Below, one piece after another: positions 38,138-64,000 of a stretch of 64,000 nucleotides of DNA (positions are counted from its first letter, which is position 1; each line of letters starts with the position of its first letter). The stretch is taken from positions 26,653,294 to 26,717,293 of the forward strand of contig NC_063155.1 of assembly GCF_020921035.1 (NCBI RefSeq), written 5' to 3'. This stretch comes from Rhodamnia argentea. Taxonomy: Eukaryota > Streptophyta > Magnoliopsida > Myrtales > Myrtaceae. Both the position numbers and the translations under genes were made by a program. A model generated the notes under the pieces. That model saw nothing but the letters and a program-made list of their open reading frames with translations. It was not told where the DNA came from and did no database searches.

Positions 38138-38689
38138 TGCGCACACTCGTTCAATAATTTCCGTGGGTTATGAGTCAGCCCCTTCGAAATGTTAGGGAAA
38201 AAACAGAAAAACAAACGATTCGTTTGTTGGCAGAAGATAAACATTATGGGCTTTTTCTTCTGCCATTCTGTTCAATCCCTTTTTCTCTTCTTGCTGTGTG
38301 AAGCTTCTTGGCATGTTGTCTTCTACATGTATTTAATGGGTATTCTACTTCTTATTTTATGTCGTCAGATAGATTCAGTTGCTAGGACAACGGATATGTG
38401 CGTCTCGGGTCCAAAAGAAGACATCTCAATTTGGTTTTGTTTCCCAGCTCTAAAAAGAAAATAGCTAATGATCAAGATTCAAGAAGATCAGACAATTGAC
38501 ACACACAGACTGAAGGTCTGGCTATTTTCTCGGTCAAGCAATCGTCCAATTGATGACACCCCGGCTGTGTCTACGGTTCCATGTTCACGTGAATCTATTT
38601 TGTCTCAATCATCAAATCATAGGAAATTTTGAAAGAATTTTGACAAGTTTTTAAATTGTTTTTGACAAGTGAAATAAAGCCTTTTTTTT
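38138..38689. other. 3' flank of sulfotransferase 3
   Basis: 38240-38420 repeats the downstream sequence of the first copy (TTTTTCTTCTGCCATTCTG, GTTGCTAGGACAACGGAT). It lacks the LTR that interrupts the first copy at 20717. No other gene. Confidence 0.55.
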
Positions 38690-39460
38690 TTTTTTTGTCA
38701 AAGAAATAAAGACTTGAAGTGCCCTGAAATAGACATTGTTTCAAATAAGGGCCGAGAGTAACTTCATTTTTTCAAATAGAGACACGAAGTGAATATTATT
38801 TTAAATAAGGACCTAAAGTTATCATATAATCTAAAAAAAAAGGTTTGACCACACGGGCTGATCAAGGGTATTTTCGTACTTTTTTTCTTTTTCTTTTTCT
38901 AATTAAAAAATCAAAGTTAAAAAAAAAACAACAATAACAACAACAAGCAGCGTGAGGGCAGCCCTCCCACCTATGGCCACCGGCGACTCCACCGACCGCA
39001 GCCAAAGGCCTGCTAGCCCTTTCCAGAAACAAGAGAGGGTTGCAACCCTCTCCCAAGTTTGGGCGAGGGTGCTGGCCTCGCCTAGGTCCGGGCGTGGATT
39101 GTCGGCCCTCTCCCGTTCCTAGCGAGGGCCCGCCGGCCCTCACTCCGATTGGCAAGGTTGCCGGCCCTCGCCGAGGCATCGATGGGGTGTCGACCACGGG
39201 CGAGAGGGCTGTATTTCTTTTTCTTTTTTTACTTGTAACTTTTAATTTAATTTAACTAAAAAATAAGTTAAAACTATCTTTTGAGGGATAATGCCCTTGA
39301 ACGACCAAAATATTTAGTCGGCCGGCAGGCCGCCGAGATGAGGCCCTTACTTGAAACTGTCATGGTCACCTCATGTCCTTATTTGAAATAAAATCCACTT
39401 CGAACCCTTATTTAAGAAAATAAAGATACTTCATACTCTTATTTGAAAATTTTTCCACCA
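38690..39460. mobile_element. TIR-type non-autonomous element
   Basis: Both ends are built from inverted TTTCAAATAAGG(G)-type words spaced about 40 bp apart, around a GC-rich core with repeated GCCGGCCCTC. No coding sequence, and the borders are approximate. The GC-rich core word recurs in other elements of the window (about 45000 and 60500). Confidence 0.4.
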
Positions 39461-39789
39461 AATCATGTAATTTTTTAGTATTTTAAATATTTTTCTAAAA
39501 TAAAAGGGATTGAAAAATCACGTGTCAATAGAGTAGAATCGGAAAATATGATTCTAATCAGAATTACTTTTTTGAATCAGAATCATTGTCGGACAGGCCC
39601 CAAGTGTCCGTGATGATACCTTCAAATAGACAAGAAGATCCCGTGAATTTTTTGTTAAAATGGATTTCTTGCATTTTTTTGTGGTTTTCAGATGATGCAA
39701 AAACCTAGAAATAATGACTAGTGACCAAACGCCAATATTCTTGAAAATTTGAAGTACGAAGAAGTCTTCGCTGTTCATAAATCTCGAGA

Positions 39790-41406: not shown

Positions 41407-43384
41407 GTGTCCATGCGTGTAACTTTGTGTGCTCGATAGTAAAAAATAAATAAATAAAAAAATTGATGAATATATGCATGGTTAGGGAGGTCAATGCCCA
41501 GTTGGCTCCTGAAAGAGTCGCTCTCATGGTATTAGGCGAAAGATTTTGGTGTCATTTGCCAATTATGGTTCTTATCCTGTTATCTCGTGTCGTGTTGTAC
41601 TTTCCTGATCGCGACTCTTATCAACTTCGTTTGGATTTCAATTATAAGGTGATCGTCACATCCTCCCAAACGACATATAAATTTCTACAGCATATCAAGG
41701 AAACCCATCAAACAAGTCGGTCGAATCAGATTTGTGTCGAGTCATGCCCCATTTAACCCATTGACTACAATACAAATTCAGTGACTCATGCCCGATCCAA
41801 CACATGCACAATCATACTCGACCCAATCTATATTTCTAAAACACTTTCATATTTAATCAAATCTAGGAAAACCTATGTTCCAAGTGAATGACAATAAAAT
41901 TCAATGTTTAGCTGAAATATGAAAATGACATACAAAATATTTTCATCATTTCGTATGAAAAATCTCATTTGATTCTTTTGAAGGAAATTATCAAAAAAAA
42001 TTTGAATTTTTTATTTTTTTTTTCCTTTTTCTTTTTCTTTTACCTTCTTCCTTTGTCGATAGCCAGCCATGGCGACAGTCGCCGACCAACCATCGGCGAG
42101 AGATGAGGACTCCCAAGGCCGGCAAGCCTCGAGCTTGCTAAAGGTCGATGGCTCGGTGAGGTCAAGCTCTCCGCAACTCGAGAGGCCTCGAGTTCGCCAA
42201 ATATGAGAACTCACTTTTCGCCGATTCATGAAACCTCAAGCTCACCGCGACCCACGAAGCCTTGAGTTTATCACCTCCTCCTCGAGTTCGCCACGATCGG
42301 ACTACCTTTGGCAAGGCTCGAGCTCGCTGGTCTTGGGCGAGCTCGTCCCTTGCCTATGGCGGGTCGTTGGCGACCTGCCAAAGAAGAAGGAAATAGAAAA
42401 AGAAAGAAAAGAAAAATCTAAAAAATAAAAATAAAAAAGAAATGTGAAGGAGTGCAAGGAGGAAAGATGAGAGGAAATGATTTTCTCTACTTTCAAAATT
42501 GTTTTTTCTATTGGTGAAATATGTTATCCTTAACTAATTTATTTTTTGTGAACCAAACGCCGAAAATTTTGAAGTTTTTTTTTTTTTTCTTGAAAGTTTG
42601 TTTTCCGTAAAAACAAAGGTAACCCTTGTTAGCCAGAAAGCTTAAAATAATCCAATTGATCCAACTATTTGGCCGACAGTCACCAGCCAACTAACATAAT
42701 TATGCATATATTCTCATGTCGTGTTGTACTTACAAGATGGCGACTCTTATCAACTTCGTTTGGGTTTAAATTCATTAGCCAATTGTCCCCTCCTCCCAAA
42801 TAAAATATGAATCTCTACTGCACAACAAGTTATCGCATCTTTAGTTGTGAATTCAAACTCTTTTCCCAATAAATTCCATGGAAAGCGGGGCCGTGTCACT
42901 TTATTTAACATGAATTGCAATTACATTTGCGTATTTAATGGACGAAAATGTAATTACAAAAGATGAAAATGGAATCCTCAAATCTAAACGATGATTTCAT
43001 CATCCATAAATTGTAAGAATTGAAACCTTTAAATCTTCTTCCTCTGTATATGCTGAGGTTTTGTTTAATAGCACAGATAGAATGAGTGCTGGTTCTTCTA
43101 GTTTAGAATGAACGATTGTTTTTGTATCAAGCTACGTGTTATTTTATACGAAAGATGCACATCAATACAATGCACGCAAATTGCGTATGTCATGTGTTTT
43201 AGCAGAACAATCATTTGATGTCATATTCTCTTAGATGTTAGGTTATGTTATTCTATTTATCTCTTCCTTCGCATTATATGTTGCTTGGGAATTTTCCATT
43301 CATTGAAACTGTTATTGAAGTTTTAATGAAACCCACGTTATTTAGGTGGAAAGGTAAGCCAACTCTTCACCAACATGATGCTTG
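41407..43384. other. Non-coding stretch
   Basis: No gene. GC-rich words at 42050-42360 (GCCGGCAAGCCTCGAGC) belong to the same repeat vocabulary as other elements here, but I could not define ends. Confidence 0.35.
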
Positions 43385-43917
43385 TTAAGGGTGTATTTGT
43401 TTGAGCGAAAGTGTTTTTTCGGAAATTGGTTTTGTGAACTTCTGCCCGTTTGGTTCGTCGAACATGACTTAATCAATAGAAAACACTTCAACAAAAAAAA
43501 TTCATGCATAAAATTAGAAAAGTGGATTCCTAACATTATTTGGAATTTCTTATCTCAAATTTTTCAATATTTTGTTTGATATTTTGTATTTTATTTCTTT
43601 ATTTCTTTTTTGTTCTTCTTGTTCTTTTTTTCTTTTTCTTCTTCCTTCTCTGGTCGTCGGCCGTTGCCGAGGCTCAGCAACCGGTGGAGGAAGAAAAAAA
43701 AGAATAAATATATAATAAATATTATAAACAAAATATAAAAAAATTCTAGCCTAGGATAAATCGGTGAGATGGAAATGATTTTTTAAATGAGATCCAAACA
43801 CCAAAAAACGTTTTCGATCAATATCACCAAATAACCGAAAACAAACATTCACTGAAAAATGATGGATAAATCATTTTTCTTCCTTATGGAGCTTTTCCCC
43901 AAACAAACGTGCCCTAA
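43385..43917. mobile_element. hAT-like MITE candidate
   Basis: Left TTAAGGGTGTATTTGTTTGA and right CAAACAAACGTGCCCTAA are imperfect inverted ends; the CAAACAAACG-type tip is common among hAT MITEs. No clear target duplication. Confidence 0.4.
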
Positions 43918-45055
43918 AGATCGATGTACAAATTCTATTTTTGTTACTGCTAGCAATCACCATCGAGATCCCACCTATCTAGATCTCGTCGTCGACAACA
44001 AGCCTCGTCAAGAGCGAGGAGGCGAGGCTTGTGCGTGGGGGGAGGGATGTAGGCCGGGGCCAGGGACATTTAATTGTAAGGTCTGGCTCGTCTCGGTTGG
44101 GCCCTGACCAAGGCACGCACAACTCAAGAAAAGGTGTACATACTATTCTTTTATTTTCTGAGATAATAATATAAATAGTTCCTAAATTTCATCCAAACGT
44201 TAACTCAAACTTGTACATATGCAACACTCACTTCAGTGCCAACTCCAATTTGAGCTGACGTGACTCACCGGAGTTGGCACTGAAAATGAGCGTTTTTCAA
44301 AAATTTTGACATTGAAGCAATCGTTTTGAAAGTTTTGACACTGAAATGATCGTTTTTTTAAAAAAAAAATTGATATTTAAGTTATCATTTTGAAATTTTT
44401 TTATAAAAATGAGTACCGTACACAAGTTTTGACACTTATAGTATACTTACGACAAAAAATATGACATTTGCATTGTGAAAAACAATGTTAAAAGATGTCG
44501 ACACCAAAGATAGTTTGCATGAGAATAGACACGTGAATGGCACATGCTCTTCAAAATTTTCGACCAAAGAAAAGGCTCTTAGAAAAGAAGAGGAAATAAA
44601 AAAGGAGGCGCTTCTTATGTATATATACAAGAATTTCATCAAAAATAAGAAAACCTCTTTTCAGGAACCAATCTAAAAAACCACCAAAACTAGGAAACAT
44701 CTTTGAAATAGGAAAGTGTCATACGGACTTAAATTCGAGACTTATTTGCATCAATCTCCACGTTGGCTCGATGTCTAGTCAAGTTAGAATTACTTCTTTG
44801 AAAATCCGAATTTCACTGTTACTCTCGCACAGAGATCTTCCAAATCCAATTCGCGAACTTCGCCATTACTGTGGACTTCACCGATACACTAACCCTATCT
44901 ATGGCCACAAGCGACCGTGCGAGATCGCCAGCCAATCATCGTCGACCATATGCGAGGGCCAACGATCCTCACCTGGTTTGGGGAAAGGCATCGCGGCCCT
45001 CGCCTAGATCCAAGCAAGGGCCAACACCCTCGCCCCCGCCGACCACAGTTGTCAA

Positions 45056-45086
<31 letters not shown>

Positions 45087-45624
45087 TATATAGCAAAGTA
45101 GAATAAATTTGAAAATATACTAAAATATTAGTAAATTTATTCACGTCAGATATGGTCATACCACGTAGGTTGGCTGGCATCTACATCGGCGATTTCCAGC
45201 CAAAAGTGACTAGATGGACTCAATTGGCAAAATGTGCAAAGCTTTAGAAGTCAATTAGCACAATTAAAAGATGTAGAATTGAATTGGCGAAAAGTGCATT
45301 ATATTAAAATTTTTTGGACAATTTTTCTGTCTTAAAAATCTGAGTAAAGAAGTTGTGCGTATGGATTAAGCGCACAAAATGGATTTGAAATTTTACCCAT
45401 CTGAAATAGTCTCTCTCTCTCTCCCCTAAGAAATAATTTGCAAGTATCCATCCTGTGGTGCAATTAAGGGAATGGTAGTGAGATAAGCGCTTCCAATATG
45501 CTTTTTGCCTAGTCATTTAAATCATTTCTGAAGCTGAGAAATTTACTTTTCTTCCGAGGCTGGCTCATCCCGATGTCCATAGTCTATGTTTTATACTTCA
45601 TTCACTCCAAATTTTGCGGACAAA
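43918..45624. other. Non-coding stretch with element fragments
   Basis: 44270-44460 resembles one arm of the element at 40190 (GACACTGAAATGATCG, CAAGTTTTGACACT). 44780-45330 has MULE-like words (ACGTCAGATATGG, GGACAATTTTTCTGTC at the right end). A (TAA)n run lies at about 45056-45084. No gene. Confidence 0.4.
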
Positions 45625-46070
45625 AGATGGATACGTTCATCTCGATGCGGCAGTTTGCCAATAAGATGAGCGTGGAGAAGGAGGAGAGCGCTCCCCATGC
45701 ATGGATAAAACTTCCAAGAAGTTCTGCGACGGCGTTACGTTACGCGGGCACTACTGAGACCACATCGTCGGAGAACTACAAGGCGAGCCGGGAGGTGCCC
45801 GAGAAGGTGTTGTTCTTGAGGGGTGAGGACATGTAGTAGAGGGTTTTGTGAGGCAGGGAAGAGATGGGGGTCAGTTTTTGGGTAGCGCATCACCCGATGA
45901 CGGCGGCGGCGGGATGGCGGACGAGGCTGCTGAGACGACGCAGTCTCGGGAGTTGGAGGAAGTTAAAAGGCGAATCGGAACCTGGTGAAGAACGAGGCCC
46001 TGTTCCGAAGAGGCGAGGCCGGAGACTGGGACGAACTGTGTGAGCAACGAGATGGCCCGGAGGCTTTGAT
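45625..46070 (+). pseudogene. Sulfotransferase pseudogene 5 (remnant)
   Basis: Patches of the family are readable in shifting frames: MDTFISMRQFANKM (from the 3'-phosphate motif), KFCDGVTLRGHY, REVPEKVLFLRGEDM followed by two stops, and RRGEAGDWDE near the end. The whole N-terminal half is absent. It is the most decayed and last copy of the tandem family, on the same strand as the others. Confidence 0.8.
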
Positions 46071-48486
46071 CAGAGATTCGGATGTGCTTTCCTTTTTGTC
46101 TCTTTTCTTTTCTTTCTCGTCTTTCCTTTTTCCGTTTTTCGACATTTTCACCTAAATGTTCTTATTTGCTAGATCACCCAACTACACAGCACGAGGTGGT
46201 GGAGTTGGGTTTTTCTACATTAGCGACGACAGAGTAGTGGAAATGAAATCTCGATACTAAAGTTCTGTACGTAATTGAATTTCACGTTCCTTTAAGGAAT
46301 CTAATTTCACAAGTGATACATTTAGGCCATGTTTGATGGATTTTTAATTAGGATATGATGAGATATGATGGGATATGAAATCTATGAATTTTGTCCATTG
46401 TTTGGTATGAAAAGCATACCAGTGTAAATTAGGACTGTCAATATGGGTCAAAGACCCATATTTTAACCTACATTTATGAAAGTGAGTCAAATACGAGTCA
46501 CATTAGAACTAAGATATAGGTTATGTTTGAGTTTAAAAGAAAAAAGAAGCCCAAACAATATGGGTTTAAAATGAACTTGAAAATGCACAAATAAAAATGG
46601 TAAGAATCTTTTACGATTCACTGTTAAATAAATCACAAATGCACAAATGGAGATAACTTCAGTCTAATCAATCCATGATTATTGCACAACCTAAATCTTA
46701 AATAGCAAAGGAGCTCGTCACAGCATTCTAGAGCCATAAGCTCGATTGTGACAAGAAATGTACAAGCTAGATCAGCCAACAAATGTCGAATATAACAAGA
46801 AAGAAAACATGATCATTCACATTCTCAATTTCCAAAAATACATAGCGTTTATTATTATTTTCCTCTCTTTTCTTATTTCTTTTCTCTTATTATTTCTTTT
46901 ATTCCCTTTCACCGTCCAATAAATATTCATGCTAAATATATATTATAGAATAGAAGGAATTCAATTGTATAAATAGAAGGGCAAAATCCACTAAAAGCCC
47001 AAACTATCTCCTACAACACCAAAAATCTCAAATTTTTACCTACGTTACATATTTACCCTTTATCAAAATTTCATCAATGGGAACCATTAAAAATCTGTGC
47101 ATATAGATGCCGAAAAGCAAAATAAAAATGACGTTGTTTTTGCTGAAAAATCATCCGACAAAACCTTGACAGATGAGAGTAAATGCATTGCATATGTACA
47201 AGTTTGAGATTTTTTATGTCACAACAAAATAACTTAGGGTAACCGTGTGTAAAAGTAGACATAGTTTGGATTTTTTCATGTCACAAAAAAAAATTAGGAT
47301 AAATGTGTCTCAATGGACATAATTTGGATTTTTTTATGTCATAAAAAAGTTTAAAAAAATGTGTCACAATATGCATAGTTTGAAGTTTTTGTGGCTTTTT
47401 CCATAAATTAAAAATATAAACAAAATTTGTTTCTACATTTTGTTAGTTTTAAATTTTTAATATTGTTATTCAAGTGTTATATTTATTGAATTACCTTTTT
47501 GATTTTAAATTTAATAAGTTTGTTATTCGAGAAAAATAGTTTTTATAGTATGGATATTTTATCCATCTTTATCCCACTTTCCTCATAAGATACTTTTATC
47601 CGGGCTATACCCCTCTTACGTCCAACTTTAACCTGCGTTGAGTAGGAACCAAATACATGATAGGATAAACTCCATCATATCTTATTTTTCATCCTAATTA
47701 TCGATCGTAGTCCTACATTTAGATTTTTTTTGGCCAAAGCAAAACTTTTCTTTCCCCTATGATAGTTCTTATCCTACTTTATAGTAACCCGATTCCACGT
47801 GGAACCAAACGAGACGTTTCACTTTAGTTAATTAGTATATGAGTTAAATTGTTTACTGGAAATAGTTGTCCAGGGAAAATCATAATTTAGGTGTTATTAT
47901 AAGATCCATTAATCGATTCTTTGAGGTTAAAACTAATTTGGTAATTCATTTTGCTTTGGATAATCATCGATGTACATATCCATTTCTATCTATACAAGAT
48001 TAAACAAACCAAAAACAATCTTCAAACTCATACTCCTGTAAAAAAAAAATTATTTTTTTTGATACAGCCTAGATCCGCATGAACGAATCCTAGCGATCAA
48101 TTACAAAATAATCGAAAAATGGTAATTAACAAATGAAATATTAAGCAATATTTCATTTTTCAATTTCTTCGCCGTTTTACAACAATTTAAACTTTTATTC
48201 AAAGCTAAATGTTAATCATACTTTTGTTTCCTTCATAGTTTTTCTTGTTCCCTCCTCTCTCTTTTTTTTTTTTTAATTTCTTCCAAAGCGTATGTATATT
48301 TGTGTAATTCTGTTTATGAAAAGGAGAATAGATCAACATCTGTAGGCAAAACGAGGGACACATAGTAAAACTATTTTAATAAAAGTCGATACATTAATCA
48401 ATAAATTACAGAAAATCAATTTTTGATACGTCTAATGTTTCCCAAAATTGTGTAATCAAAGTGAAAGTAGAGACGGTGGGCAATGG
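46071..48486. other. AT-rich non-coding stretch, possible old element
   Basis: 46326-47810 starts AGGCCATGTTTGATGG and ends near GGAACCAAACGAGACG, with ATATGATGGGATATG mirrored by CATCATATCTTA; this suggests a degenerate TIR element, but nothing can be defined. No gene. Confidence 0.3.
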
Positions 48487-48825
48487 TAGGGGTGTCAAAA
48501 AAGCCCGTGCTAGATGGTCCGGCCCAATTCGACCCGATCCAACCCGAAAATTCACTTAATTTTCAAGCCGGGTTTAGTACCCGGGCCAGCCCGCCGCCTG
48601 ACTTTTTTTAACACCAATGTTTTCTTTTTAATTTCATTTATTTTTATTTTTGTATATTCTTTCGTTTGATGGGTTTGTTAATTAATTTTGATTTTAAAAA
48701 AAGAAGGAAAAAAAAAGAATCAGACCAAAGTCCGGCCCGACCCGATCCGGTCCGGGTTGGGCCGGGTCGAGTTCGGTACTGTTCTGTTTCGGGCCGGTTC
48801 GGGCCGGGCCGAGACCCAGCCCGTC
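48487..48825. mobile_element. hAT-like element upstream of GEK1
   Basis: It starts TAGGGGTGTCAAAAAAGCCC and is rich in inverted GGTCCGGCCC and GGGCCGGTTCGGGCC words. The flanks GCAATGG (48480-48486 and 48826-48832) are a perfect 7-bp repeat, with an eighth base mismatched, fitting a hAT duplication. The right tip is incomplete. Confidence 0.6.
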
Positions 48826-48828
48826 GCA

Positions 48829-49044
48829 ATGGCTAATAGAGTAGCTTTAACATCGGCGATAGACGAGTTCGAACCTTCCTTTGCCACCACCTCCCAAGTG
48901 GCGGCTCAAGAAAGGAAGGAGAAGCCAAAGCTGCGGCCGCCAACTGGAAATGAAGCTGCCCACAACGTTTGGCGGATCACTTGCTTGACGAAATTTCCAT
49001 GCTTTACCGATTTTGAGTTGCGCTTGTGGAGATCGATTTCGTAG
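48829..49044 (+). other. Upstream open frame in the GEK1 5' region
   Basis: A 71-codon frame begins at an ATG contained in the right target-site duplication of the element at 48487 and ends 54 bp before the GEK1 start codon. It has no family match. If transcription of GEK1 starts upstream of 48829, this would be an upstream ORF; if it starts later, it is meaningless. Confidence 0.3.
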
Positions 49045-49098
49045 AGCACAGCGCAGGCGATAAAGGAGGAAGAAGAAAGAAGAAGGGAAGAGCGACAA

Positions 49099-52000
49099 AT
49101 GGTGATTCTGTTGGTGGCCACAACCACCGACCCTGCGTCCATCAATCCCGCCAATGCCCTCTTGGCCATGCCCGGTTGGACCCCTGGTCCCTCCCTTCAG
49201 GTCATCCACGCCTCAATCGAGTCATCAAAATCAGTTTTTTTTTAAGCTTCTCTTCTACGACTTGGATTGTCTTGAACAGTGTTTGATTTGAGTGGGCTTT
49301 TTTTTTTTTGGCGATGTTCTGGTTTTCTGTAATTTGGGGTTTGAAGGGTATGAAAAGTTTCGCCAATCAACAAGTGAGGCTGCTGCAACAGGACAAAGGC
49401 ATCGTGAAAGAAGATCATCTCGACGTGCGTTGGGAAGAAGCCACCGGCGAGGTGGTGGACGAGCTAATCTTCTTCAGTAAGCACACTGCCGTCTCCAATC
49501 GCCCGGCTCTGACTGTCCACCCAATTGGTAATTTTGTACTTCTTTTCGTTATCGAGTATCGCAGTTGGGGGACGTTAAATTTTGAGGAGAGAGTGGTTTG
49601 TGATTTTCACTTCTCTTGGCGAGCGTGCGTGTGTTGTTGTCGTTGTAGGTGTACCTCATCTGCGTGAAGGCGAAGTTCCGCCGCAAGGAGGGAAGCCGGG
49701 GTGGGCTGCGCCGCCGAATCCGAGAATAGGGCCGTGGCTGAGATTGTTGAAGAAGATTGCTCAGTCCTATAATTTGGTTCCAGAGTTTGAGGTACATTCT
49801 TGTTTCTGGTGGTCCTTTTATGATGTCTTGTTCATCCATATGTTGGGTCTATTTTGCGGCATGTGGTTGCATTGTAAGAGATGATTCTGGATATGGCTAT
49901 TGATGATTTTTTGTTTCATGGATTATGAGTAGATTACCTTGGAGGGCACTCATCATGGACCGGAGACCAACAAGCCGGCAATGTTTGTGGAGATTGGTAT
50001 GTATAACTCTCTTTTCATTTCATTCTCCAATTGTATTGTTCAAACTAGATCAGTGTTGTCCCTGTTGCTGATTTTCTTTAGTGTTATTTCAATCCATATT
50101 GGACTCCTATGGGAATGATTTGATTGAGTTCCTCGAATGTCGAAAGACCAGCATTTTACTCATGTTCCAATTTCCACATGATGGACACTGGTTACATCCT
50201 GTTAACTAAAGATGGTTGCGCTTTCACTGTCTACACTTTTCGTCTATTTTCCTTGGTCATCCATCAATTAATGACTTGCCATCATGTGTAAAACCTTCTC
50301 TTTCAAAGTGATGGACATTTAAGTAGAATGAAGTCTTTTGGACCATCCCATTCCATAATATCTTTGGTTCAATAGTAGGAAAGTATATACCGTGCAAAAG
50401 CATGCCGTTCATATGGCTGCTATATCATTGCAAAGTTGCCCCTCCCCTAATAGATGATCTGATTGTGTTTCCTGTAGTCTACCTTCTGCAAACTGTCCTA
50501 TTCCATGTGACAACACTATCAAATTGATTTCCACTTCATATCAAGCAACCAAGCTTTCAGCGAGTAGTTCCTTCCTTTATGGGGTACAAATAGTTGTAAT
50601 TAGTTGACAGTATGTGTATTCTTTCTGCTTTCCTTTGACTAATTCTTCATGTAGATTGCTGTGCAAATGCTCATTTTATGGTTAACTTTAACTTGGAATG
50701 TGGACTTTGTAGTCTGTGTGCTGCACTCTTTTTGTTGCCTATCAATGATGCCCTTAGCTGTGAGAAATAGATATGATCCGCAGTGTTGTTTTTGTGCTTG
50801 ATTTAGGGAGTACCGAAGAATACTGGATGAGGCTGGATGCTGCTAAAGTCATTGCTCAAGTTGAGTTCACAGCTTTTTTATATAGAGTACTATTGAGTGG
50901 CATGTCCCTTCTTTTAATTTGACTCTTGTAGGGATTGGTTTGCACATTCCGGTATGTCATTTGCAGTTGTCATGGTGGATATGGGGCAATAGTGGTTTGA
51001 CTGTATGCAAGATGGATTTTTTTTCTTTTCTAGTGTAAATCACCACGACAAGTGCCTTCATCATACTAACGTTATACTAACTGATATGTTGTTTGTGGAT
51101 CTTTGTGAACAAATCCTACGACAACCCCTCCTTTCATAACTCTCGCACAAAATTAGTTCTTCTTCATGTGGTGAAATTCTGTATTGGTCCAATAACACTG
51201 GAAGAACAATCAGTACATAATTTCAAACTCTAGGAAGAATAAGTGTACACTGGGGTATCAGGGTGTGTTATTATTAATTCCTTTTGTAGTTGTGTAAAAG
51301 GACCAAGCTTCTTGCTTCTGAATATCAGAGAAAAAAATTATCTCTGGCTCCTGAGTACATGGAACTTTAATTTACTGAAAAGAAAATTCTTTTCACAGGA
51401 TAATTTTCCTGTTAAACTTCAAGGTCACCTTTTTCAAATGTTTGAAAAGGACATGTAATTTGATACCATGTGACGAGACGGCAGTCCAGAATCTGATCGT
51501 CTTTTAAGATTTTTTTAATTCCTTAGTCTGACATATCACTTGTTCAAATGAAGTTAGCTTGGGAAGGTCTTGGGCTTGGAGGAGAACCTGCAGTTGGGAA
51601 CTGGAGCAGGTATACACTCATACTTTAACTGATGTTACAAGAAATTAGCCTTTCTTTACCAATAGTATTTCAAAGCTGTTTCTGTGGTTTTGTGACTGAA
51701 TTCAGTACTTTGTAGATGTGTTTTTTTTCCATCGAAAGGCTATTTGGGAAGCAGTATAACTTCTGTGTTTCACTTCTGTCGTCGATGTGAAATGCTGAGT
51801 TCAAGAAACTGAGAGAGCACAAGTGCTCGTGACTATAAATCATTGCTTGCTCAGGACCATGGAATAATACATTTGCCTCTGATACTGTCTCAGGGATGTT
51901 GCCAAGAAAAAAGTCTTGCTTGGGATAGGTGGTGGACATTACGCGCCTCGGCACCTGGACATTGTCCAGTAAGACGTCTTTTAATTTTTTCTGTCCTCCT

Positions 52001-52639
52001 TAATGCTACTATCTAACATCTTTTCGTGGGTTTGATATCTATAAATTTGCTACCTGTTCGGATTAGATTTGTAGACAGAAAAAAGATAACAATATTTTCA
52101 AGTTACAACATCCCAAGTTTATTAGGTGCTCTCGAGGTGTTTGAAGTTTACATAGCATTTTCACGATAATTTCAGGAAAGATGATGTGTGGGTAGGGCAT
52201 CTGCTTTCTGGATATTGCTTACCCATGGAAGATCCTAGCCAGTCAAAAGCAGAAGCTAATACGGCAGTTATCGGGGGGACCTGGAGGCAAGCGATTGAAG
52301 TGGCATTCAAGACTACGAAGTCGGCTTTCCCCGGTGGCGACATTATGGCGCATCTTGATCATAAGTAAGTCATCCAAACAGACAGCGTATTTTTCAGCTT
52401 CCTGATGGGCGCAGATTAAGCAATATAACTTGGGGGGCACAGAGCATCAGGCAATTTTTTAAAAGCATTTGGACCTAATAGGCTTAGTTCTAGCAAAGTG
52501 CTGGTAACATTCAAGCTATGAATTGACCATTGCTTATAATGTCGTCTACAGGAGTTTCAAGAGCTGGCAGAAGAATGCGATCACGGCATTCTTAGCTGAC
52601 CAGAACATCAAAATTGGCAAGCCAAATGACTTCTTGTAA
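49099..52639 (+). CDS. GEK1: D-aminoacyl-tRNA deacylase, GEK1/DTD2 type (9 exons, 316 aa)
   Basis: Hydrolyses D-amino acids, and aldehyde-modified D-aminoacyl groups, from tRNA; in Arabidopsis loss of GEKO1 causes ethanol/acetaldehyde sensitivity. Exons by GT-AG borders and family match: 49099-49200, 49347-49527, 49649-49791, 49933-49996, 50807-50859, 51554-51609, 51894-51968, 52176-52364, 52552-52639. They sum to 951 nt, in frame. Landmarks: MVILLVATTTDPASINPA start, RWEEATGEVVDE, ALTVHPIGVPHL, the histidine-rich GTHHGPETNKP, FVEIGSTEEYW, LLGIGGGHYAPRH, VWVGHLLSGY and LAHLDHK-like MAHLDHKSFKSW near the C-terminus. Length matches the plant protein (about 317 aa). Confidence 0.93.
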
Positions 52640-54306
52640 GTTGAAATTTTGAATTTCTATCTTGTTGTCTTGGTGGACGTCCATGCCTTATTAAGCCTCT
52701 TGACTCTTGAGGACTCGGTATAATGCTCCGAGTTCTAGAAGATAGAATTCAAGGGATGAAAAAAAGGACTCGCTCACGATTTTCATGGGCCATCGAAATG
52801 GATCAACTGTGTCGATAGCATATGAATAACCGGTATGTGGAAGTAACGAAGGCATCGCGCTGTTGCCGCCAATTTTGCGCGATTTTTGCTCGTTTTCCAT
52901 AAGAAAGAATTCTGGAAGCTCTGATGTTACTTTAGTTTTATGAATTTGTGTTCTGTTCTGTTCTGTTCTGTCTTGCCCTGTCCTAACTAAACTATGAACT
53001 CTTAGCTAAGCAAATTCTCATGAACGACGAGACGGACTGATGAGGCGAAACAGATGTCCGAAGACCGGAATGAGAAGCCAAAGTTGACCACGGCAAACGT
53101 GCTAAGTGTCGGCCCGAATCATGCCAGCCCAAAATTCCGTATTGGCAGCTTTTAATCATTATAAAAATAAAATGTGCAAAAAATAAAATAAAATAAAGAT
53201 ATTGCAGGTCGTGTGAGATGATGCATAATTCATGGAGTATTCGTCACATCACAATTTGTCCACGGTCAAACATACCCGAATTAGATGCTGGCTGGACACC
53301 ACGTCTGCTTTTTGCATCGTTGTTTGTCCGATCAATCTTAAATTTATTGGATGCTCATTCAGTTTTCATATAATTCTTTGAGTGTACAGAAATTTCAAAT
53401 GCAAGTAAGTTAGCGAAGGGAGTCGACTAAACTATTCGTGAGTAAGCACGATGACATGGACCTAAAATAAAATTACTTATACAAATCATCGTTTTGGACA
53501 CAAATTTCGCCTCCAACTCCATTGAACAAAGATACGGGCTATTACATTTTGGGTGGAAGAACAATTCGATTCATCTTCAGTTCATCTATTATTAGAAAAT
53601 GATAGAGCAATTGATTGTCTATTCACATGTCGGATTCGACTCATCGAAAGTTATTATGTTTGTCAAATGTGCTAATGAAGTGATTCAGTTCAAACCTGTA
53701 TCGATTTATATTCGGGTTAATGTCCATCGAATATTGGCTTTTAAATCCGTATCATACCTTTGTGGAAAGGAGAGATTTTTGGGGAACAAAAAGGATTAAT
53801 TGTGAGAGAAACCGAAAATTTTCTCAAGGATGATAATTTTTTTGCCGAGACCCGACAGTAGCAGGCAAAGTTTATTTTTGATCGCTGGTTTCGTGGGACC
53901 CCCGTGGGAAAATTAAGGTGAGATCCACAGAATCAACGGCAGTGATTCATTTGGTCAAGTGGGAACCAGGTCAAACTAATCCGCAGAGTGTCATTGTCTT
54001 GCCCGGTTCAAGCCTTCGCAGGGGAAACAGTTACTGCTCTCCTTCCTCGTTTGCTGTGGCTTTTTCCGGCCGAAAATAAAGCTGCTCTCCCGTCGCAGCA
54101 CACCAAATACAATTACTCTTCGCCCTCTCGTCTTACCTCATTCACATGGCTCTGTTTCTGCGATGTTACTGTCTCTCAATTAACATCAAGAAAGACAGAG
54201 AGAGAGTAAGAGAGAGAGAGAATCACATGCCTGTAAATAACCATTAATGTCCACTGAAACAGGGGAAAAAAAGAAGAAGAAATGGCCGCCATGAAGTATG
54301 AACATG
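52640..54306. other. Intergenic region between GEK1 and the gar2-related gene
   Basis: The GEK1 3' UTR presumably extends to about 52950. A TTCTG microsatellite is near 52950-52970. No gene was recognised; a minus-strand 199-codon frame at 54176-54775 is driven by GA repeats and is not supported. Confidence 0.45.

Positions 54307-54334
<28 letters not shown>
54307..54334. repeat. (CT)14 microsatellite
   Basis: Uninterrupted CT dinucleotides in the upstream region of the gar2-related gene, with GA-rich runs at about 54193-54220 and 54752-54768. Confidence 0.9.
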
Positions 54335-54337
<3 letters not shown>

Positions 54338-56636
54338 GTTTCTGCTGTGGAAGTAATGGATTGGAGGGTCAGTCAACGTCCTTCGCGGCTCTGTTGCAGG
54401 GAAATGATTCTCTGGAAAGAGGAAGTAATCGATATCAGCAGAACCCCACAAAAAAAGGGCACTTCCACCGGCTGATGAATGATGATTGGCGCTTAATCTC
54501 GGGTGCTGTGTTCGAGAACCCAGCTGGGAAAATACGATGTGAGGGGAACCCCGAAACGGGGTTGGCGCGGAAAGTGACGGAAATTGGACGGTGAAGTTTT
54601 GACGATAAAAAGAAGGAAGGTGGAACGAAAAAGTAATGGGAGGATATGGTTGGGGGAGGGGACAAATTACATAAAGCTGTAAACTTTCCATGTAACAATA
54701 AACAAATAGCTGAAAATTTGGCAACTTTCTTTTGTGGGTTTGTTGGGGGGGGAGAGAGAGAGAGAGAGGGGACATAGCCGTATAATCTGTAGTTTTGTTG
54801 GGTTCACTGTAATTTCAATTCCTTTAGAGAAGAATAAGAAGCAGCGGCATCCCAGTTGACTTTCAGGATATTGTTAGCGTCTCCATGCACTTGTCAAAAA
54901 ATCTTTCTCGTCAACTTTTTGAATTTCTCCATGGATATGCGCCTGTTCAGAAGAGCTATTGCTTGTTCATGAGAGTCTTTTTTGTTCGGGAAAAGATTGT
55001 TTGACAACTAGCCATCTGTCTTTTGGGCATTTATTACTTCGTCTCTAAACCACTTCCACCCCCCCTTTTTTTTTTTTCTGTAGTGCCACCCTCTGCTTTG
55101 TCTCTCATTGCCGCCATTCTCTCTCTCCTCCATGCTACAGGAACAGCCTAGACTCACGTAGAAATTGGATCAGAGAACATCAAACGAAGAGCCATCTCTC
55201 GGTCAAATCAAATCCTCCCTCGGTGGGATCATCAAGCAGCATTTCTCCTCTTCCTTCTAAGGTCTCTCTCGCTCTCGCTCTCTGCATCCACGTTTTGGCT
55301 TCTTTTTTGGTTTCTGGGTAGACATGTTCTGGTTTATTTGTTGGTAAGTTGCGTATTTTGAGTATTAAGAAGATATACAACCCAGGAAAGAACTGAAAAA
55401 ATGGAAGAGGAAAAGTTGAAGGGGAAGATATGATTTGCATTGATATTGGATCTCATCATTCAGATATCTGAATCATCAGATTCTGCTAGTCCTGGAGCTT
55501 TCTTTGCACTCATTCTTCTTCATATTTTCGATGAACATATCGTACTTGTTGATTAAAATCGAAACATGGGTGGTGGGTATTTTTTTTTCCCTTTCGGAAA
55601 ATCAGTGCAAAGTCCTTGATTACGATCTTTGGAAGTTTGTTTGTGGATAGCTTTCGAACTCTGTTTTCCTTTTCGTTCTTTTTAGACCCGCTTAGGTTGC
55701 TTTCCGGAAAGCTACCAAAGTCATTATTCCTTTGTCCTGTTTAAGTCTAAAATACCAGTTTAGTCTACAAACTTGGATTCAGGTATTCATTTGTAATGTT
55801 GATGATCGGTTTAAGCCCTGATAATCCACTAACCACCACTAAATTTTCAGGGTAATGGATCTTTGTTTAGTTTATTTTCTTCCTGACATTTTTGCTGGAA
55901 ATTGGTTGGACCCCCACTTTTTGTTCTTTTTTTGCTTTTTGAAAGTCTTCCTGGGATCTTCCTTTTTCTAATATACCAATTCTTTAATGTCAACCTTCAC
56001 AATCCAAGGTCAGAAGACTGTGAGGTATTACATGATGTGCTCTCTCTCTCTTCCCTTGAAGTTGATGTTCCCTCTTGTATTAGAATTGAGTTTGAAGTTC
56101 TAGAGCAGTCTCTGGTCTTCGTTGGAGTGCATGTCTGCAAGGTGATGGCTTCAGGATTTGGCATTATCTACTCATTTGCAATTGAAAAAAAGAACTCCTG
56201 CACGTTGTGTGTTCTTTTTTAAACATAGATAGTATTAAAACATAATTTAACGGTGCCTTTTGTTTGTTTCGAAAGTTCACCTAATTTTACGGCCCCTATT
56301 GCTCTCTAGCCTGCCTTCACTGTTGATGAACGGAGTCGCAGTGTCTTTTGACGGTCTGCACAATTCTTACTGTATTGTCTATGTGAAGCATGAATTTTGG
56401 TGTTTCACTTTGTTAATTCTTGCTCTGGTTTTGTTGTTTCTGCACTGTCCATTGTCCTAAAGTCGATACCCTCTTACTAAATGACTTCCTGATATTGGTA
56501 TCTCAATTCGTTCTGAAAATTATGTGTTTTGCTGCATCCAGTTAGCCCTCTCTTGAGAGCCTGATTTTTTGGTTAATTTCCCATCAGTTTTAATTCTAAT
56601 TCTGGGGCATTTGGCATATTGAACCGTGTTTTGAAG
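54335..56636. other. Probable 5' exon(s) and introns of the gar2-related gene
   Basis: The 5' part of the next gene must lie here, because its first recognised exon begins at an acceptor with no ATG. CT-rich leader-like sequence occurs near 55090-55270. I could not decide which donor joins to 56637. Confidence 0.35.
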
Positions 56637-58532
56637 GTTGATTTCATTCACGGATGGTGATGTTGATTGGGCGTTTCACGTTTCACCGTACTTAAATAGT
56701 CTGGACCACCCTTCAACTCCACAGAATGAAGTCTTCAACAGCAATGCTGAAAAGAGGATGAAACAGGACAAGAAAATCACAACGGCAAGCGCTCGAGAAG
56801 TCCCACGTGATGTCGAGGGCAGTGAAAGAGGTTCCGTTTTGTCGAGTATTGACAGCAACGACTATGGCTTCTGGTCGGTGTTGAAATCTAGTGACTTGGA
56901 GCAACTTGACATCCTAGGGAGGAGTGGGCTGAGTGGCCCTTCCTTTGCAGAAACGAGGTTTTGCCCGGCGAAGAAGGACATGGGTTATCTCGTGGATAGA
57001 AATGATGACGATTTACGAGTTCCCGAGTTGATGATCTGCTACCGAGAGAGCTCTTTCCTCGAAGTCAAGGACATCTGCATTGATGAAGGCGTGAATTCTC
57101 ATGAAAATGTCTTGTTTGAAACCGACAGGGACAAAGGCCCGGGTACCAATTTTCTCGGCAGCGAGGATAAAGGGAGAAATCTATCTTGCAGAAGGATGGA
57201 CGATCATTTCTCCGCTGCAAACTGTTTGAACTGTTCAGAATATCATTACTTTGAGGATGCTGTTAAGCTGCATGTTCGTGCAAATTTAGTACCGACCGAA
57301 ATCGAGGCAGATGACAATGCGGATGCCATGTCCAAAGTGAGAGATGTTGCCTTGGATATTCTACCCTGCGATTCATCTGATAATGTCTGCTATGGAATCA
57401 CGCAACCTTCTTCTAAGGTATGTAGTCCTGTGCTCCTCGGAGAAAAACTTCTGCAGCATCTTCACTGATGTGATAGTGCTCGGATGTGAAGACTATTTGC
57501 AAGGCAAGATCAAGACATTCGCAAGATTATCACTTGCTATTCTTATTCTTCTGGTCCAATGATGCGATGTAATCGCCGCTTTTCTCCTAAAATATTTATG
57601 TTTTCTCATGCGGAAGCCCGTTCAACACCGATGAGACTTATTCATATGTTATGGAGTAGTGATAATCTAGTAGTAGGTTTATTTGGAATTGCATGATCTC
57701 TAAATCCTGATACCGAGAATCAGCACCTTACCTTTTAGCTATAGTTGTCCTATGCCAAGTGACCTAATCATAACAGTTAGGCCGGCACTTCTGCAGGAGT
57801 CAAACTTAGAACAGATCATCCGCGCCACCGCTCTGGCATCGGCAAGCGAAGGAATTTGTGGTAGCTTGGAAGATGCAAGTGCAACCTCTGGAGACCCCTC
57901 TTCAGCTTCTAATTCAGAAGATTCTCCGAACCACAGCCACATCGAGAAACTGCCTGATGATTGCGAGGCTGACAAAGTGGCATGCCCGCCTGCTTCCAGA
58001 GGAACTGACAAGGATGCTCCCGACGCTAGCAAGGCAGAATGCAGGAGCACTGCCCCCAACTCAAATGCTTCGGCCCCTGCATCCACGAGTGGAGAGGAAA
58101 TACACACCACCGAGACTCGAAATAAGATGAAACATGACGGGGTTTCCGATAGTCCAACAGAGCGTCAAGCTGAAATATTTAGCGGGGAATCGAGTTTCTC
58201 AATGGCAGGCCCCATCTCCAGCCTCATAACTTACTCGGGGCCCATTGCATATTCGGGCAACCTTTCACTAAGATCGGATGGCAGCACAACCAGCAACAGA
58301 TCTTTCGCCTTCCCCGTGTAAACACAGTCTGCAAGTTACACAATCTGTTTTGTTCTCCTTTCGGCTCATTACTTGAGCCATGACTAACTAATCTTTTTAA
58401 CGCGCTACAATTGTTGGGTGCAGATTGCAGGACGACTGGAACAGCAGTCCGGTGCGAATGGCGAAAGCCGACCGGAGGATTTTCCGGAGGCAAAGGGGCT
58501 GGAGGCATGGACTTCTCTGCTGTAGATTCTGA
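56637..58532 (+). CDS. gar2-related (18S pre-ribosomal assembly protein gar2-like) plant protein, 5' end unresolved
   Basis: Three coding exons are supported: 56637-57417, 57797-58317 and 58424-58532, joined in frame. The protein is largely acidic and disordered, with serine-rich stretches. The family match is the C-terminus: LRSDGSTTSNRSFAFPVLQD continuing into DWNSSPVRMAKADRR and the basic, Cys-rich end GWRHGLLCCRF. The gar2 name comes from weak similarity; a ribosomal role is not shown. FAFP fits the FxFP docking motif of MAP-kinase substrates. The first in-frame ATG in the large exon is at 56758, but the conserved-looking FTDGDVDWAFHVSPYLN lies before it, so the true start is probably in an upstream exon. 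Function unknown. Confidence 0.8.
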
Positions 58533-60227
58533 AAAGCTTATTACATTCTTTGAGGCTTACTTGTAGATGTCCACATACTCCCCGTCTTTCGTTTGTCCCT
58601 TTTCTTGTCCACCTGGGATGTCAACAGTGGCTGCTGCTGGAATGAGATGTAGAAGATCATGTCTAGGCTGAATTCCTTTTGGTCCTTCAGGCGTCCTCTA
58701 TTCATCAATCTAGAGAGCAAAGTTCTCCTTCTCTAACTGCATATGTGGTGAACATCCCAAACATCTTTTCGGCTATTTGTTGCTCTGAAAATTTTCACCC
58801 GGGACTCGCGTGAGTTCAAATGGACCTCAGCCGGTGAATCATGCGGGCCCCAGATAGGACTCAAGTGATCCGACCGTCGACATAAAATGGAAGCGCTCGA
58901 GTGCCTTATGGGGTAAACCGAGCTAAAGAGAGAATGTGCCTAATCTGTGCCATTCTCTTTTGAAGAGAGGAGAAGGAAGTGTCAAAGTGAATTGTCTGCT
59001 GTTGTCTTGATCTGTTTTGGGAAACTTGCATTTGTTTTTGCTCCTCTTTTGAAAGTCTTCATTTGACGCAACTTTGACTTTTGATGAAAACTTTGCCAGG
59101 GAAGTAAACAAGCACCCTTTTTTCCTCTTCTGAAATCAGGCCCACGTCCGCCCGGGTTGCTCCAAATTGGGCTCGAATCGATCACCAAGCAAGGACGGCC
59201 AGTAACCTAAATTTGATCCCTGTTAACTTACGGTCTATAGTCGCGGTCAGAGATCCAACATGGCAATTCCGTGTCAAATAAATCCACATCGCTTACCGAG
59301 TGGTGGATTTCGGGCTCTGTTCATCGTCACCGTTCGTCGTCTCCGACCTCACCCAACAGCGTCTCCTCCGGATCTTTCGAATCTCGAGAGAAAAAGCAAA
59401 ACGGAAGATAGGACAAAAGGCATTGATCATGTAAAACCTCTTAATTTATATTCGTGGTCTAAACGGAGATAGAGAAGCAAAACACCTAAAGCGGACAACG
59501 TCAGACAGGCTGATAGACCGAATTGGCACAATTACAAAAGGTTTAGAATTACTTTTTTTTTTCTGGTAATTTCCCTCCTAACGCGGATAGTGCTTAAACT
59601 TCCAATTGGCAAAAAGCTCTTGATCCATCGATAGTCTAGTTCATGTGATCCTTCTTCAACGGACAACAAGCTGTTCTCTCTTTATTTTCCAAATGCAATT
59701 GGTAATTAAGCTAATCTTAATCCATCAGTAGTCATAGTTCATTATCCCTGTCATCTTATTTCTAATTTTTTTTTTTTTTGCCTTTTCCTAAGTTGAATTA
59801 TTCATGATAGCCAGCAGCCTAGTCGCGAGTAATGATTTTCCATTTTAATTTAGCATGCAGCATTCCTTGCTATTCTCTTCTTGTGATTGCTCTTGTTCTT
59901 CTTGGGTCCAGCGCATTCCACAGGGTAGGGATCACTTTGCTTCTAGGGTTGATCGAGTGCGCAATTGAAATTGCACGAAAATGGACACGGATCCGACCAA
60001 ACCCTTGTTGAAGTGTGTGGTCACGTCACGCTAGTTGGTAAGGGACTGACAAAGTCTCTCTAGACACAGCCTGGAATTAACCTTTGATGGACACAGCTCG
60101 GTCCCCGTCTATTGTGGTCATTTGGAAAGATTGCCATAACCATCCTCACTTTCTCTTTTAGCCATGTTGCATGCACCCTTTCCTCTTGAAATTCCAGGTT
60201 TGGCATTCTCATTTTCAAAATTTAGGA
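58533..60227. other. Intergenic region, no gene seen
   Basis: The 3' UTR of the preceding gene, then non-coding DNA. A MULE-type tip fragment (CACAATTACAAAAGGTTTAG) is near 59525. Arabidopsis has an NMD3-type gene in the corresponding interval as I recall; I see no trace of it here. Confidence 0.45.
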
Positions 60228-60805
60228 GCGGATTTGTCCAAAACGTCTTAAACATATCGCATTTTGATCGATTCAATCCCAAACCTTTCGATTTTGTCAA
60301 TTGAGTTCTAAACCTTTTGACACTTTACCAATTGAGTCCATCCGGCCAATGACTTAGACATTGATGGTATCATGTAGGATGGTCGGCGCCGACGTGAATA
60401 ATTTATATATATTTTTTTATTTTATATTTTTATATTCTTCTCAATTTCTTTCTTTTCCTTTTTTTTTTTTTGTCAAGTCCGATGAGGGCTCGCCGACCGA
60501 TCTCGACCACGGGCAAGGGTTGGCTAGCGGCCCTCGCCGGGTTTGCAAGAAAAAAAGGAAAAAAATGTAATAAAAGAAACTCGGAGATTTTTTAAAAAGT
60601 TATAAAAGTTGTCCACGTCGGTGTTGGCCATGTCACATAAGACGCTTGACATCCATTAGAGCGATTTTCCAGTCAAAATTGGCCGGATGGACTCAATCGA
60701 CAAAGTGTCAAAAGATTTATGACTCAATTGACAAGATTAAAATGTTGATGACTGCATTAACCAAAGTGCAATAGGTTTAGGACTTTTTAGACAATCTTTC
60801 TCGTA
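60228..60805. mobile_element. MULE-related MITE
   Basis: Arms of about 150 bp are inverted copies: GTCCAAAACGTCTTAAAC, CCAATTGAGTCCATCCGGCC at the left and GGCCGGATGGACTCAATCGA, AGGTTTAGGACTTTTTAGAC at the right. The core carries GC-rich CTCGCCGACC words. Flanks AAATTTAGG and TAATTTAGA suggest a degenerate 9-bp duplication. Tips resemble those of the large element at 2022-17864. Confidence 0.6.
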
Positions 60806-61736
60806 ATTTAGACTCCATATTTCATCGACTCAGGTAGCAAAATTATCGAATTGGCACTTTCCTTCCCCGAAAATGCCCCTTCCCCTGCCACATCCTCTGC
60901 CCGACCACCTAAACCCTCCGAACCCAAATGTCCAAACCCTCGCTCGGCCACCCCGGTCATTTCCCGTTGCCTCACCTCTGCAAGGGGCCTGCGTGTGTGG
61001 GTGCGCATGCGCGTGTCCAAGAATACAACACCACCGGCGACCTCGATAATCTAAGTTCGCCGAAACGTCCGTCACCTTGATTTGAGATCATTGAGAGCCC
61101 ATAACCTGAAATCTAGGTCACCGAAGCCATGAACAGCCTCTATCCAAGGACGTCGACGACCACGGCAAGATCTATGTCTAGAGAGAGAGAGAGAGAGGCG
61201 CCGTAGTACCAGTCACATTCACCAGAGCTATTGGCGACGCGAAGGGGGTTATTTAGGTCACGTTTTTCTGTCTATACACATACAAATAAATGAATCTAAG
61301 CAATTATAGATCTTTTGCCCCTAAAAATGAGAGGATGCTGATACATAGCAATATATCCGTGAACAACATCCTAGCGAAAAAACCTACAATCAAGAGAGAA
61401 TATGACTGACCCACGGAATGTGACGTAGCAGACGTTGGCATATCGCGTTGATAGGGAAGTGTGTAGGAAAAATATGTTGCGCGTACCTAAGGCCACCGAC
61501 CCCACAATGAGCTGGCGACAAAACACTACTCAAAACTGCGTGAAAACCTCCTAAAAAACCAAGCCAGGGCGTAGATTTTCTTCTTGTTCTTTTCGAACTC
61601 TGCGTTTTGTGTTCTGTGTTGTGTTCTGGTCTCTTCCTCTCTCTCTCTCTCTCTCCCTCTCGTACCAGTATATATTCAAGCCAGACGCCTGCTTAAGAAG
61701 CTCTCTCGTATATGCAAGTCTGCCGTTGAGACAGAG
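60806..61736. other. Promoter and leader region of the RGF-type gene
   Basis: No other gene. A CT-rich leader (61637-61660) precedes the start codon, typical of plant 5' UTRs. Confidence 0.4.
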
Positions 61737-61851
61737 ATGGGGTCGATGGTTGTTCCTGCGAGGCTTTGCATTCTCAGCCTGAGCATTCTTATTCTAACCA
61801 CCTCGTCCTACGCTTCTCACCATGTTCATGCACTGCCTTCTCTTGAACAAG

Positions 61852-61903
<52 letters not shown>

Positions 61904-63631
61904 ATGCGATGTGAACGTGGGTTTTGCTTGGTGATATTGTCCAGCACGAGAAGCTCCGGTGGTTTCCCCTCGCAACTCGCCAAGAAAGCTCAGACCCTTC
62001 GAGCAAGTCGCTGTAACTGTAAGAAGCAATCCTGCCAAACTGGCTGAGAAGCTCATTGTTCACGTAATTTCCTTTCTCCAACTTCATTAATGGTACTTTA
62101 CCATATGCAAGCTAAAACCTCTAACTTCCATCTTTTCGTCTCGCTTTTGAATGGGAATAGATAAAAGGGCGTGGCAAAGAAGTTCCCACGGCGGCGCCAA
62201 AGCGGAAAGAAGATAAATCGGGTAATTAGAATTTTCACGGATCGCATCTCAGCATATTGCTAAATTCCTTTTTGTGAAGCATCTCCACATTTTCTCCTCC
62301 CATTACTTTCACATTAGAATCACCAAAGAACCCTAGGGAGGGACACAAAAACACATCGACCGAGTAAGTCGATGTAGCAAGGCTTATTAGATTATCAAAC
62401 AAGAGTCACCTCTGAATAGTCTCCCTCGCAATGTAGCATACCTCTACAGAAAGCAATCTGTTTCACATGTTTAGCACTCAAGATTAGGCATCTGTATGTG
62501 TCGTTGAATGACTCTATGCTTTGCGCCTAGCCATCTCTACTAACTAGAACATTATTAGGATAAAGATGGATATATTGAAATACATTGAGTCGGTCACCCA
62601 CCGATAATTTCATTTAAGTTCATGTATGTAGAGAGAGAGAGAGAGAGAGAGAGAGATGTTTAGGCCTTCATCCACTTATGAAGAATCGTGTAAAGCTTGC
62701 TTCTATTTAGATGTCGAAGAGTACTATGACCGTGTTCGAGTGACAAACATGACATTGACTGTTTTCCTTCAAAGAGAAATCAACCATCTTATGGCATGTC
62801 ATCGAAAGTTCATGTCTAGCTTGTGAACATAATAAGTTTCCATCTAGGCCTAGTTCATTATTTTACCATCAATGCGAAGCACAAATGCTATTTTTCGCTG
62901 AGTTTTCGTCAAAGAAATAGTAACAAAGTTGTTATTCATGACATGTGTGGTTTATCAGAATAAGGAACAACGTGATATAAGCAAACGCAACAATTAAACC
63001 GCCTACACGAAAAAGGTTGTCGTGCTCTCATCGTTGGTCCTTATCACTACGCATCCATGATTGGGGCCCATCTTCCAGACAGATGTAGATTAGTTTAACC
63101 TACGAATAAGGCAATGACTTGGAAGATCTGCATGGGGATAGGTTGGATGGATTAAGAGCACACTTCTGGTACAACAAGTAATTAACTAAACCTAGAACCC
63201 GGAAAACCGTTGCTGCGATCGATGAGATCATACAGTTTTATCATTCTTTTTAGCCGGCGACGGTTCCTTCCAAGGACAAGCGAGCGAGAGCCATAGGCTA
63301 CGAGCATAACATGAGGAACGTGTTTGGAGCGGACCTCATCGTACCAACTCCCAACACCATCTCCATCGATATCATTAACTTAATGATCTGGTATAGATTA
63401 AACGACGAGCTAAACAAGTGTTTTTCGTGGGCTTTGATGTGATATGTCCCAGGTGGGGATGGCGTCGGCAGCAGAGAACCAGGCCCGGCGACGATGCATG
63501 GGAAGGACAAGAGAGGGACATGGAGAGAATGGGGGGAGGGGACCGACCCGACCCAATATTTTACCATGGATTATTCCCAAGTCCGAAGACGACGCCCGAT
63601 TCACAACAAGTCCTTGCCGGTTGGTCCATGA
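61737..63631 (+). CDS. RGF/GLV/CLEL root-growth-factor-type peptide precursor (4 exons, 157 aa)
   Basis: Secreted-peptide precursor. Exons 61737-61851, 61945-62063, 62161-62221 and 63453-63631 join in frame with GT-AG borders (474 nt). Residues 1-26 form a signal peptide (VVPARLCILSLSILILTTSS, then YASHHVHA). The middle is basic and proline-rich (SPRNSPRKLRPFEQ, KGRGKEVPTAAPKRKE). The last exon ends QYFTMDYSQVRRRRPIHNKS followed by LPVGP and a stop. DY-(x)6-RRPIHN is the conserved RGF/GLV mature peptide with the Asp-Tyr tyrosine-sulfation signal. Such peptides act through RGFR/RGI receptor kinases on root meristem maintenance and gravitropism. Low conservation outside signal and mature peptide is normal. 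Splicing is inferred; the last intron (1231 bp) contains an exon-like decoy. Confidence 0.85.
61855..61900. repeat. (CT)23 microsatellite at the donor site of RGF intron 1
   Basis: 46 bp of pure CT start three bases into intron 1, so repeat-length changes would occur in direct contact with the splice donor region and shorten or lengthen this 93-bp intron. Confidence 0.92.
62631..62655. repeat. (GA)12 microsatellite in RGF intron 3
   Basis: Uninterrupted GA run inside the last intron of the RGF-type gene. Confidence 0.9.
63254..63345 (+). pseudogene. Exon-like decoy in RGF intron 3
   Basis: After a TTCTTTTTAG acceptor, CCGGCGACG and, nine bases on, AAGGACAAG repeat the spacing found in the true last exon (63484-63510). 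It has no DY...HN motif. If spliced in, it would hit a stop after about 18 codons. It may be a degenerate duplicate of the 5' part of the last exon. Confidence 0.35.
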
Positions 63632-64000
63632 AAAAAAAAAAGAAGCCTTTTGTCCCCTTAAATTTTTGTCCTAGGAGAACGTATATGTTTATACATATAT
63701 AGAGTCTCCCTTTTTAAGGACACTCCAAACAAAACGACCCCTCGTTCGCTCTACAAAATTTTCTGAAAAGACAGGAAAGCCGTGTCTTTTCCTGCGAGTA
63801 GGGAAATGAGGGAAGTGTCTTAAAAACATCTCTCTCGTGGCCGACATCGTCGAGCAAAACCCTAATGCTTTGGACCCCGCACCCCGACCACGAGCATTCC
63901 CAGGGTGGGTGGCTCGTGCATGGAGAAGTTTCCATTGTTTAATTAATTTAAGGTACAGACTAGGGCACGGTCCCGAGCCCGGTCAAGCTCCGTCAAGCGT
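63632..64000. other. 3' flank of the RGF-type gene
   Basis: Probable 3' UTR up to about 63710, then sequence with no recognised gene to the window end. Confidence 0.4.

Follow-up and report, generated by a model that had tools for sequence, protein, structure and literature searches.

The present analysis asks whether the stretch from 61737 to 63631 of the window, by which we mean the whole 64,000 nucleotides of Rhodamnia argentea DNA analyzed, holds a gene for a small secreted signal of the RGF/GLV/CLEL family, and, if so, how the gene is put together and which member of the family it represents. Our answer, to which we give a probability of roughly 0.8, is that this is the gene of a secreted peptide-hormone precursor of RGF/GLV/CLEL group R, most likely an orthologue of RGF8/GLV6/CLEL2, that works as proposed below. 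The starting point was an earlier note in which a motif with a DY start and a KSLPVGP tail after HN had been recognized in a 179-nt exon, and both are there: the predicted mature peptide, DYSQVRRRRPIHN, occupies 63569..63607 of the forward strand (residues 138-150) and the seven tail residues follow at 63608..63628, where trimming would be expected. The peptide agrees with the published definition of the family as carrying a 13-16 residue C-terminal motif with Asp-Tyr first and Pro in the second half (PMC8708909), and it is of the group R type, which is defined, in a text on lycophytes and ferns, by central R/K residues, consecutive at mature positions 7-8 (PMC8329595); here RRRR stands at positions 6-9 of the mature peptide, with H at position 12 as in seed plants. 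The precursor also has the expected dimensions, its 157 residues and calculated pI of 10.35 falling within the range drawn from the literature for family precursors, about 79-182 residues and in most cases alkaline. Neither the exact peptide DYSQVRRRRPIHN nor RRRRPIHN was found in the main texts of the literature searched.

The coding sequence is divided among four segments of the forward strand. The coding part of exon 1 (61737..61851, 115 nt) supplies the start codon and a signal-peptide-like stretch, exon 2 (61945..62063, 119 nt) the variable region, exon 3 (62161..62221, 61 nt) a basic linker that is required for the frame of exon 4, which is out of frame if exon 3 is skipped, and exon 4 (63453..63631, 179 nt) the C-terminal region with peptide motif, seven-residue tail and stop. 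As the earlier note had it, the four segments join into one open frame, of 474 nt or 157 residues and a stop; every intron was observed to begin with GT and end with AG, and reading on into intron 1, 2 or 3 meets a stop in each case. Introns 1 and 2 measure 93 and 97 nt, ordinary lengths for plants, and intron 3 (62222..63452) measures 1231 nt and holds the junction of lowest certainty. Intron 1 has a CT repeat at 61854-61900 that is the reverse complement of a GA repeat at 62630-62656 in intron 3, and the two could pair in the pre-mRNA. Upstream, a pattern scan found a TATA-box-like TATATATT at 61669..61676 on the forward strand, 68 nt 5′ of the ATG, that may function as its likeness suggests; between it and the RGF start, at 61712-61729, a tiny upstream frame (ATG..TGA), five codons long before its stop, can be read by eye. 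The signal-peptide-like start, which has a further in-frame ATG at 61746, is the strongest on the forward strand of 60000-63600, with a hydrophobic core at residues 10-21 (mean Kyte-Doolittle 2.72) whose place in the precursor depends on the exon join.

That join was weighed with approximate plant splice-site matrices. Within 61745-63450 the donor at 62221 ranks first of 163 GT or GC candidates, the other two donors ranking 7 and 12, and the acceptor at 63453 ranks second of 122, with the other two at 7 and 15. The four-exon model came first among the 78 models that had at most three introns, began with a signal-peptide-like stretch, used 63453 as last acceptor and drew only on sites above a score threshold. 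When up to four introns were allowed from the same ATG, 60 of 24,997 open models outranked it, and a fifth exon was present in all 15 models listed among those 60. In a control, 120 unrelated stretches of the window were placed upstream of exon 4; some splice model was obtained for 40, and 15 of the 120 scored at least as high as the real join. The motif exon is thus firm and the join of exon 3 to exon 4 across 1.2 kb is only likely, because some controls match its score and some four-intron models outrank it. What chiefly supports the join is that the family requires a signal peptide, that the local sites are strong, and that no stronger signal-peptide-like start lies nearby. The alternative that we take most seriously, although we think it unlikely, overlaps with our preferred reading: an RGF gene in which exon 4 is right and the upstream exons differ, by an extra exon within the 1.2-kb intron or by another donor or start. 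The outranking models, the overlapping control scores and the want of a family match for exons 1-3 would all fit such a structure; the result among the 78 models, the ranks of the last donor and acceptor and the ordinary lengths of introns 1 and 2 speak for the four exons as described.

In Pfam, at E up to 10, the 157-residue protein matched a single family, GLV1-2 (PF21529), which, by its name, we take to be based on RGF6/GLV1 and RGF9/GLV2. The whole protein scored 22.3 bits (E 2.6e-4) and the frame of exon 4 alone 24.2 bits (E 6.6e-5), both below the curated cut-off of 28.1 bits, so that we count the precursor as related to Pfam GLV1-2 and not as a member. The match in the whole protein spans residues 123-150, including 15 residues before DY, and support consequently extends past the 13-residue peptide. 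Exons 1-3 by themselves matched no Pfam family, the 157-residue protein had no match at E up to 10 in NCBIfam or among PDB sequences, Rfam at gathering scores gave none over 58500-64000, and a scan of viral contigs with the exon 4 frame gave five pattern matches, none of them a relative. The earlier assignment to RGF/GLV/CLEL precursors is borne out as far as sequence can take it, by the motif, the GLV1-2 match under its cut-off, the signal-peptide-like start and neighbours like those of RGF8.

Those neighbours are the best evidence for RGF8 orthology, since they are independent of the motif. Pfam identified tandem cytosolic sulfotransferase ORFs on the forward strand, three with the whole domain and no intron at 19134-20273, 24625-25707 and 37004-38137 (each stop to stop; E 3e-73, 1.4e-70 and 9.6e-78) and a partial one at 39781-40239 (5.8e-29), mutually 61.5-74.6% identical over the aligned parts. 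The ORF at 37004-38137, the one compared with PDB, was closest to 1q44 (380.7 bits, the next 292.0), an entry that is described as a steroid sulfotransferase and that we take to be the structure of At2g03760. Among the references of PMC4199319 is one whose title announces the crystal structure of At2g03760, which fits this identity. Further along, also on the forward strand, D-aminoacyl-tRNA deacylase (PF04414) is matched at 49930-50058, the better of two matches in that frame, with 62.8 bits against a cut-off of 33.6, and at 49449-49535 with 25.2 bits, alone under the cut-off; 49449-50058 would thus appear to hold stretches of a GEK1/DTD2-type gene. Sulfotransferases, GEK1-type exons and the RGF gene follow one another here, all on the forward strand, and these neighbours are shared with Arabidopsis, in which gene numbers follow chromosome order. 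There SOT11, SOT12 and SOT13 are At2g03750, At2g03760 and At2g03770 (PMC4199319), DTD2/GEK1 is At2g03800 (PMC10942605) and RGF8 is At2g03830 (PMC11534595), so, the numbers following the chromosome, the order SOT-GEK1-RGF8 is the same. Taken with the peptide, this makes the gene a probable orthologue of Arabidopsis RGF8/GLV6/CLEL2. Two long ORFs at 56635-58318 of the forward strand, to which the Pfam scan assigned no family, are perhaps the gar2-related gene At2g03810, as we presume from their position in the Arabidopsis order. Likewise we take At2g03780 to be translin and At2g03820 to be NMD3, lying between SOT13 and RGF8 in Arabidopsis; Pfam showed neither in 46501-61499 (both strands) or 38200-47402 (forward strand). 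At2g03810 is called gar2-like or gar2-related (PMC7570245, PMC6831543), and the literature search found no paper naming at least two of At2g03780, At2g03800, At2g03810, At2g03820 and At2g03840. Against an RGF8-type identity, then, stand the GLV1-2 score below cut-off, exons 1-3 without a Pfam match, and translin and NMD3 unseen in the part scanned. Elsewhere in the window, a retrotransposon gag ORF (PF03732) lies on the reverse strand at 10707-12347.

Intron 3 contains 34 nt (63254-63287) that are 76% identical to 63485-63518 of exon 4, with agreeing reading frames (7 of 12 residues). Of 500 shuffles, one reached so high a local alignment score under one scoring scheme, and none of 500 did under a second. 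Directly before 63254 is the acceptor with the highest score in the region, and splicing from exon 2 to this position keeps the frame. The stretch looks like the remnant of a duplicated exon. A last exon beginning at this better acceptor was tried from exon 3 and met a stop, and a motif scan of intron 3 ruled out a second RGF motif there. A partial duplicate of exon 4 at this place, together with a run of A directly 3′ of the stop codon, might suggest a decayed or silent copy in which the motif was kept through recent duplication and the gene is not expressed; we consider this improbable, as the joined frame is free of stops, the splice dinucleotides are intact, a TATA-like box lies upstream and the neighbours keep the Arabidopsis order. 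A still more doubtful idea is that 63254 opens, or once opened, an alternative last exon, akin to the alternative last exons reported for conifer CLEL genes (PMC4016512); splicing of exon 2 to 63254 would in that event yield a secreted product that lacks the RGF peptide, a possible off-switch. The motif itself is not chance: across all six frames of the window the strict form DY-x(5-8)-R-[RKP]-P-x-HN has one match, and 200 dinucleotide shuffles gave none; the looser form [DE]Y-x(5-9)-P-x-[HN]N likewise has one match, where the dinucleotide shuffles average 0.085. That a random motif in non-coding DNA was joined to a forced chain of exons, of which liberal splice sites do permit many that are open, is accordingly very improbable, the shuffles, the reach of the Pfam match beyond 13 residues and the position beside the neighbours of Arabidopsis RGF8 all arguing against it.

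For an RGF8-type precursor, we infer expression, splicing, processing, modification and function largely from the better-known Arabidopsis precursors. CLEL6 and CLEL9 lose their signal peptide in the ER and are cleaved by SBT6.1 within the variable region in the cis-Golgi, the S1P sites of CLEL6 being RRLR and RRAL; TPST sulfates the tyrosine, and an Asp-dependent subtilase, e.g. SBT3.8, frees DY after the Golgi (PMC7162652). By analogy the signal peptide would here be taken off in the ER and the variable region cut by SBT6.1, for which RKLR in exon 2 (residues 52-55) is the candidate site. A pattern scan of the precursor for R-x-[LIVT]-x gave two further matches, at residues 119 and 146, which were set aside by position. 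TPST would sulfate Tyr139, adjacent to Asp138, Pro may be hydroxylated, an Asp-dependent subtilase would free the N-terminus before DY, and the KSLPVGP tail would be removed, after which the 13-residue peptide could bind RGI/RGFR receptors. The likeness to GLV6 suggests action in the early divisions of lateral roots, since GLV6 acts in the early pericycle divisions that form them, for which its signal peptide and motif are required and the variable region is dispensable (PMC4526922).

As a probable RGF8 orthologue the gene adds one member to a known family in which its split by introns is ordinary, and the annotation of its genome may already include it. The analysis would give the source plant one hormone gene of RGF8/GLV6 type, with exon boundaries precise enough to be tested, and small split genes of this kind are easily missed, so the gene model is useful for annotation. 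It should likewise aid work on lateral roots, and it raises no new question about the RGF family.

Comparison with known systems was made at the level of the mature peptide with 11 peptides from the literature that are equally long, i.e. nine Arabidopsis RGFs, CLE18 and Brassica RGF8 (PMC11534595 and PMC11939866), RGF4, GLV8 and GLV9 having been left out because their lengths differ. Identity to DYSQVRRRRPIHN was 10/13 for Brassica RGF8, 9/13 for Arabidopsis RGF8, 8/13 for RGF6, 7/13 for RGF9 and 4-6 of 13 for the other seven, and RGF8/GLV6 is therefore the closest Arabidopsis peptide among those of the same length. Arabidopsis RGF8/GLV6/CLEL2 (At2g03830), with the peptide DYRTFRRRRPVHN, shares the DY start, the RRRRP core and the HN end, whereas here S-Q-V stands for R-T-F and I for V; this is a likeness at the level of the peptide. 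Both precursors are small, but that described here has 157 residues against 123 for RGF8 (PMC11534595). The Brassica napus RGF8 peptide, DYSKFRRRRPVHN (PMC11939866), differs by Q-V here for K-F and I for V, again a comparison of peptides only. RGF6/GLV1/CLEL6 and RGF9/GLV2/CLEL9 have in common with the present precursor an M before DY, the P-I-HN end and residues after HN; the S1P site RRLR of CLEL6 corresponds to RKLR here, and the GLV1-2 score is here below cut-off. Two features stressed as notable in the earlier note, the separation of signal peptide and motif on different exons and the tail after HN, were overstated in the light of such relatives. Most RGF genes have introns, varied in number and length (PMC8708909). 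By title, none of the literature matches listed in a search on RGF exon and intron numbers concerned RGF gene structure. Two spruce genomes yielded no CLEL motif that shares an unbroken frame with its signal peptide, and conifer CLEL genes with alternative last exons carry signal peptide and motif on separate exons (PMC4016512), as here; intron 3 of the present gene is without a second peptide motif. Residues after HN are normal as well, and the idea that the tail is unusual was rejected, because the listed CLEL6 and CLEL9 peptides end in HNE and HNR (PMC7162652) and some CLEL precursors carry "NCS2" tails (PMC4016512).
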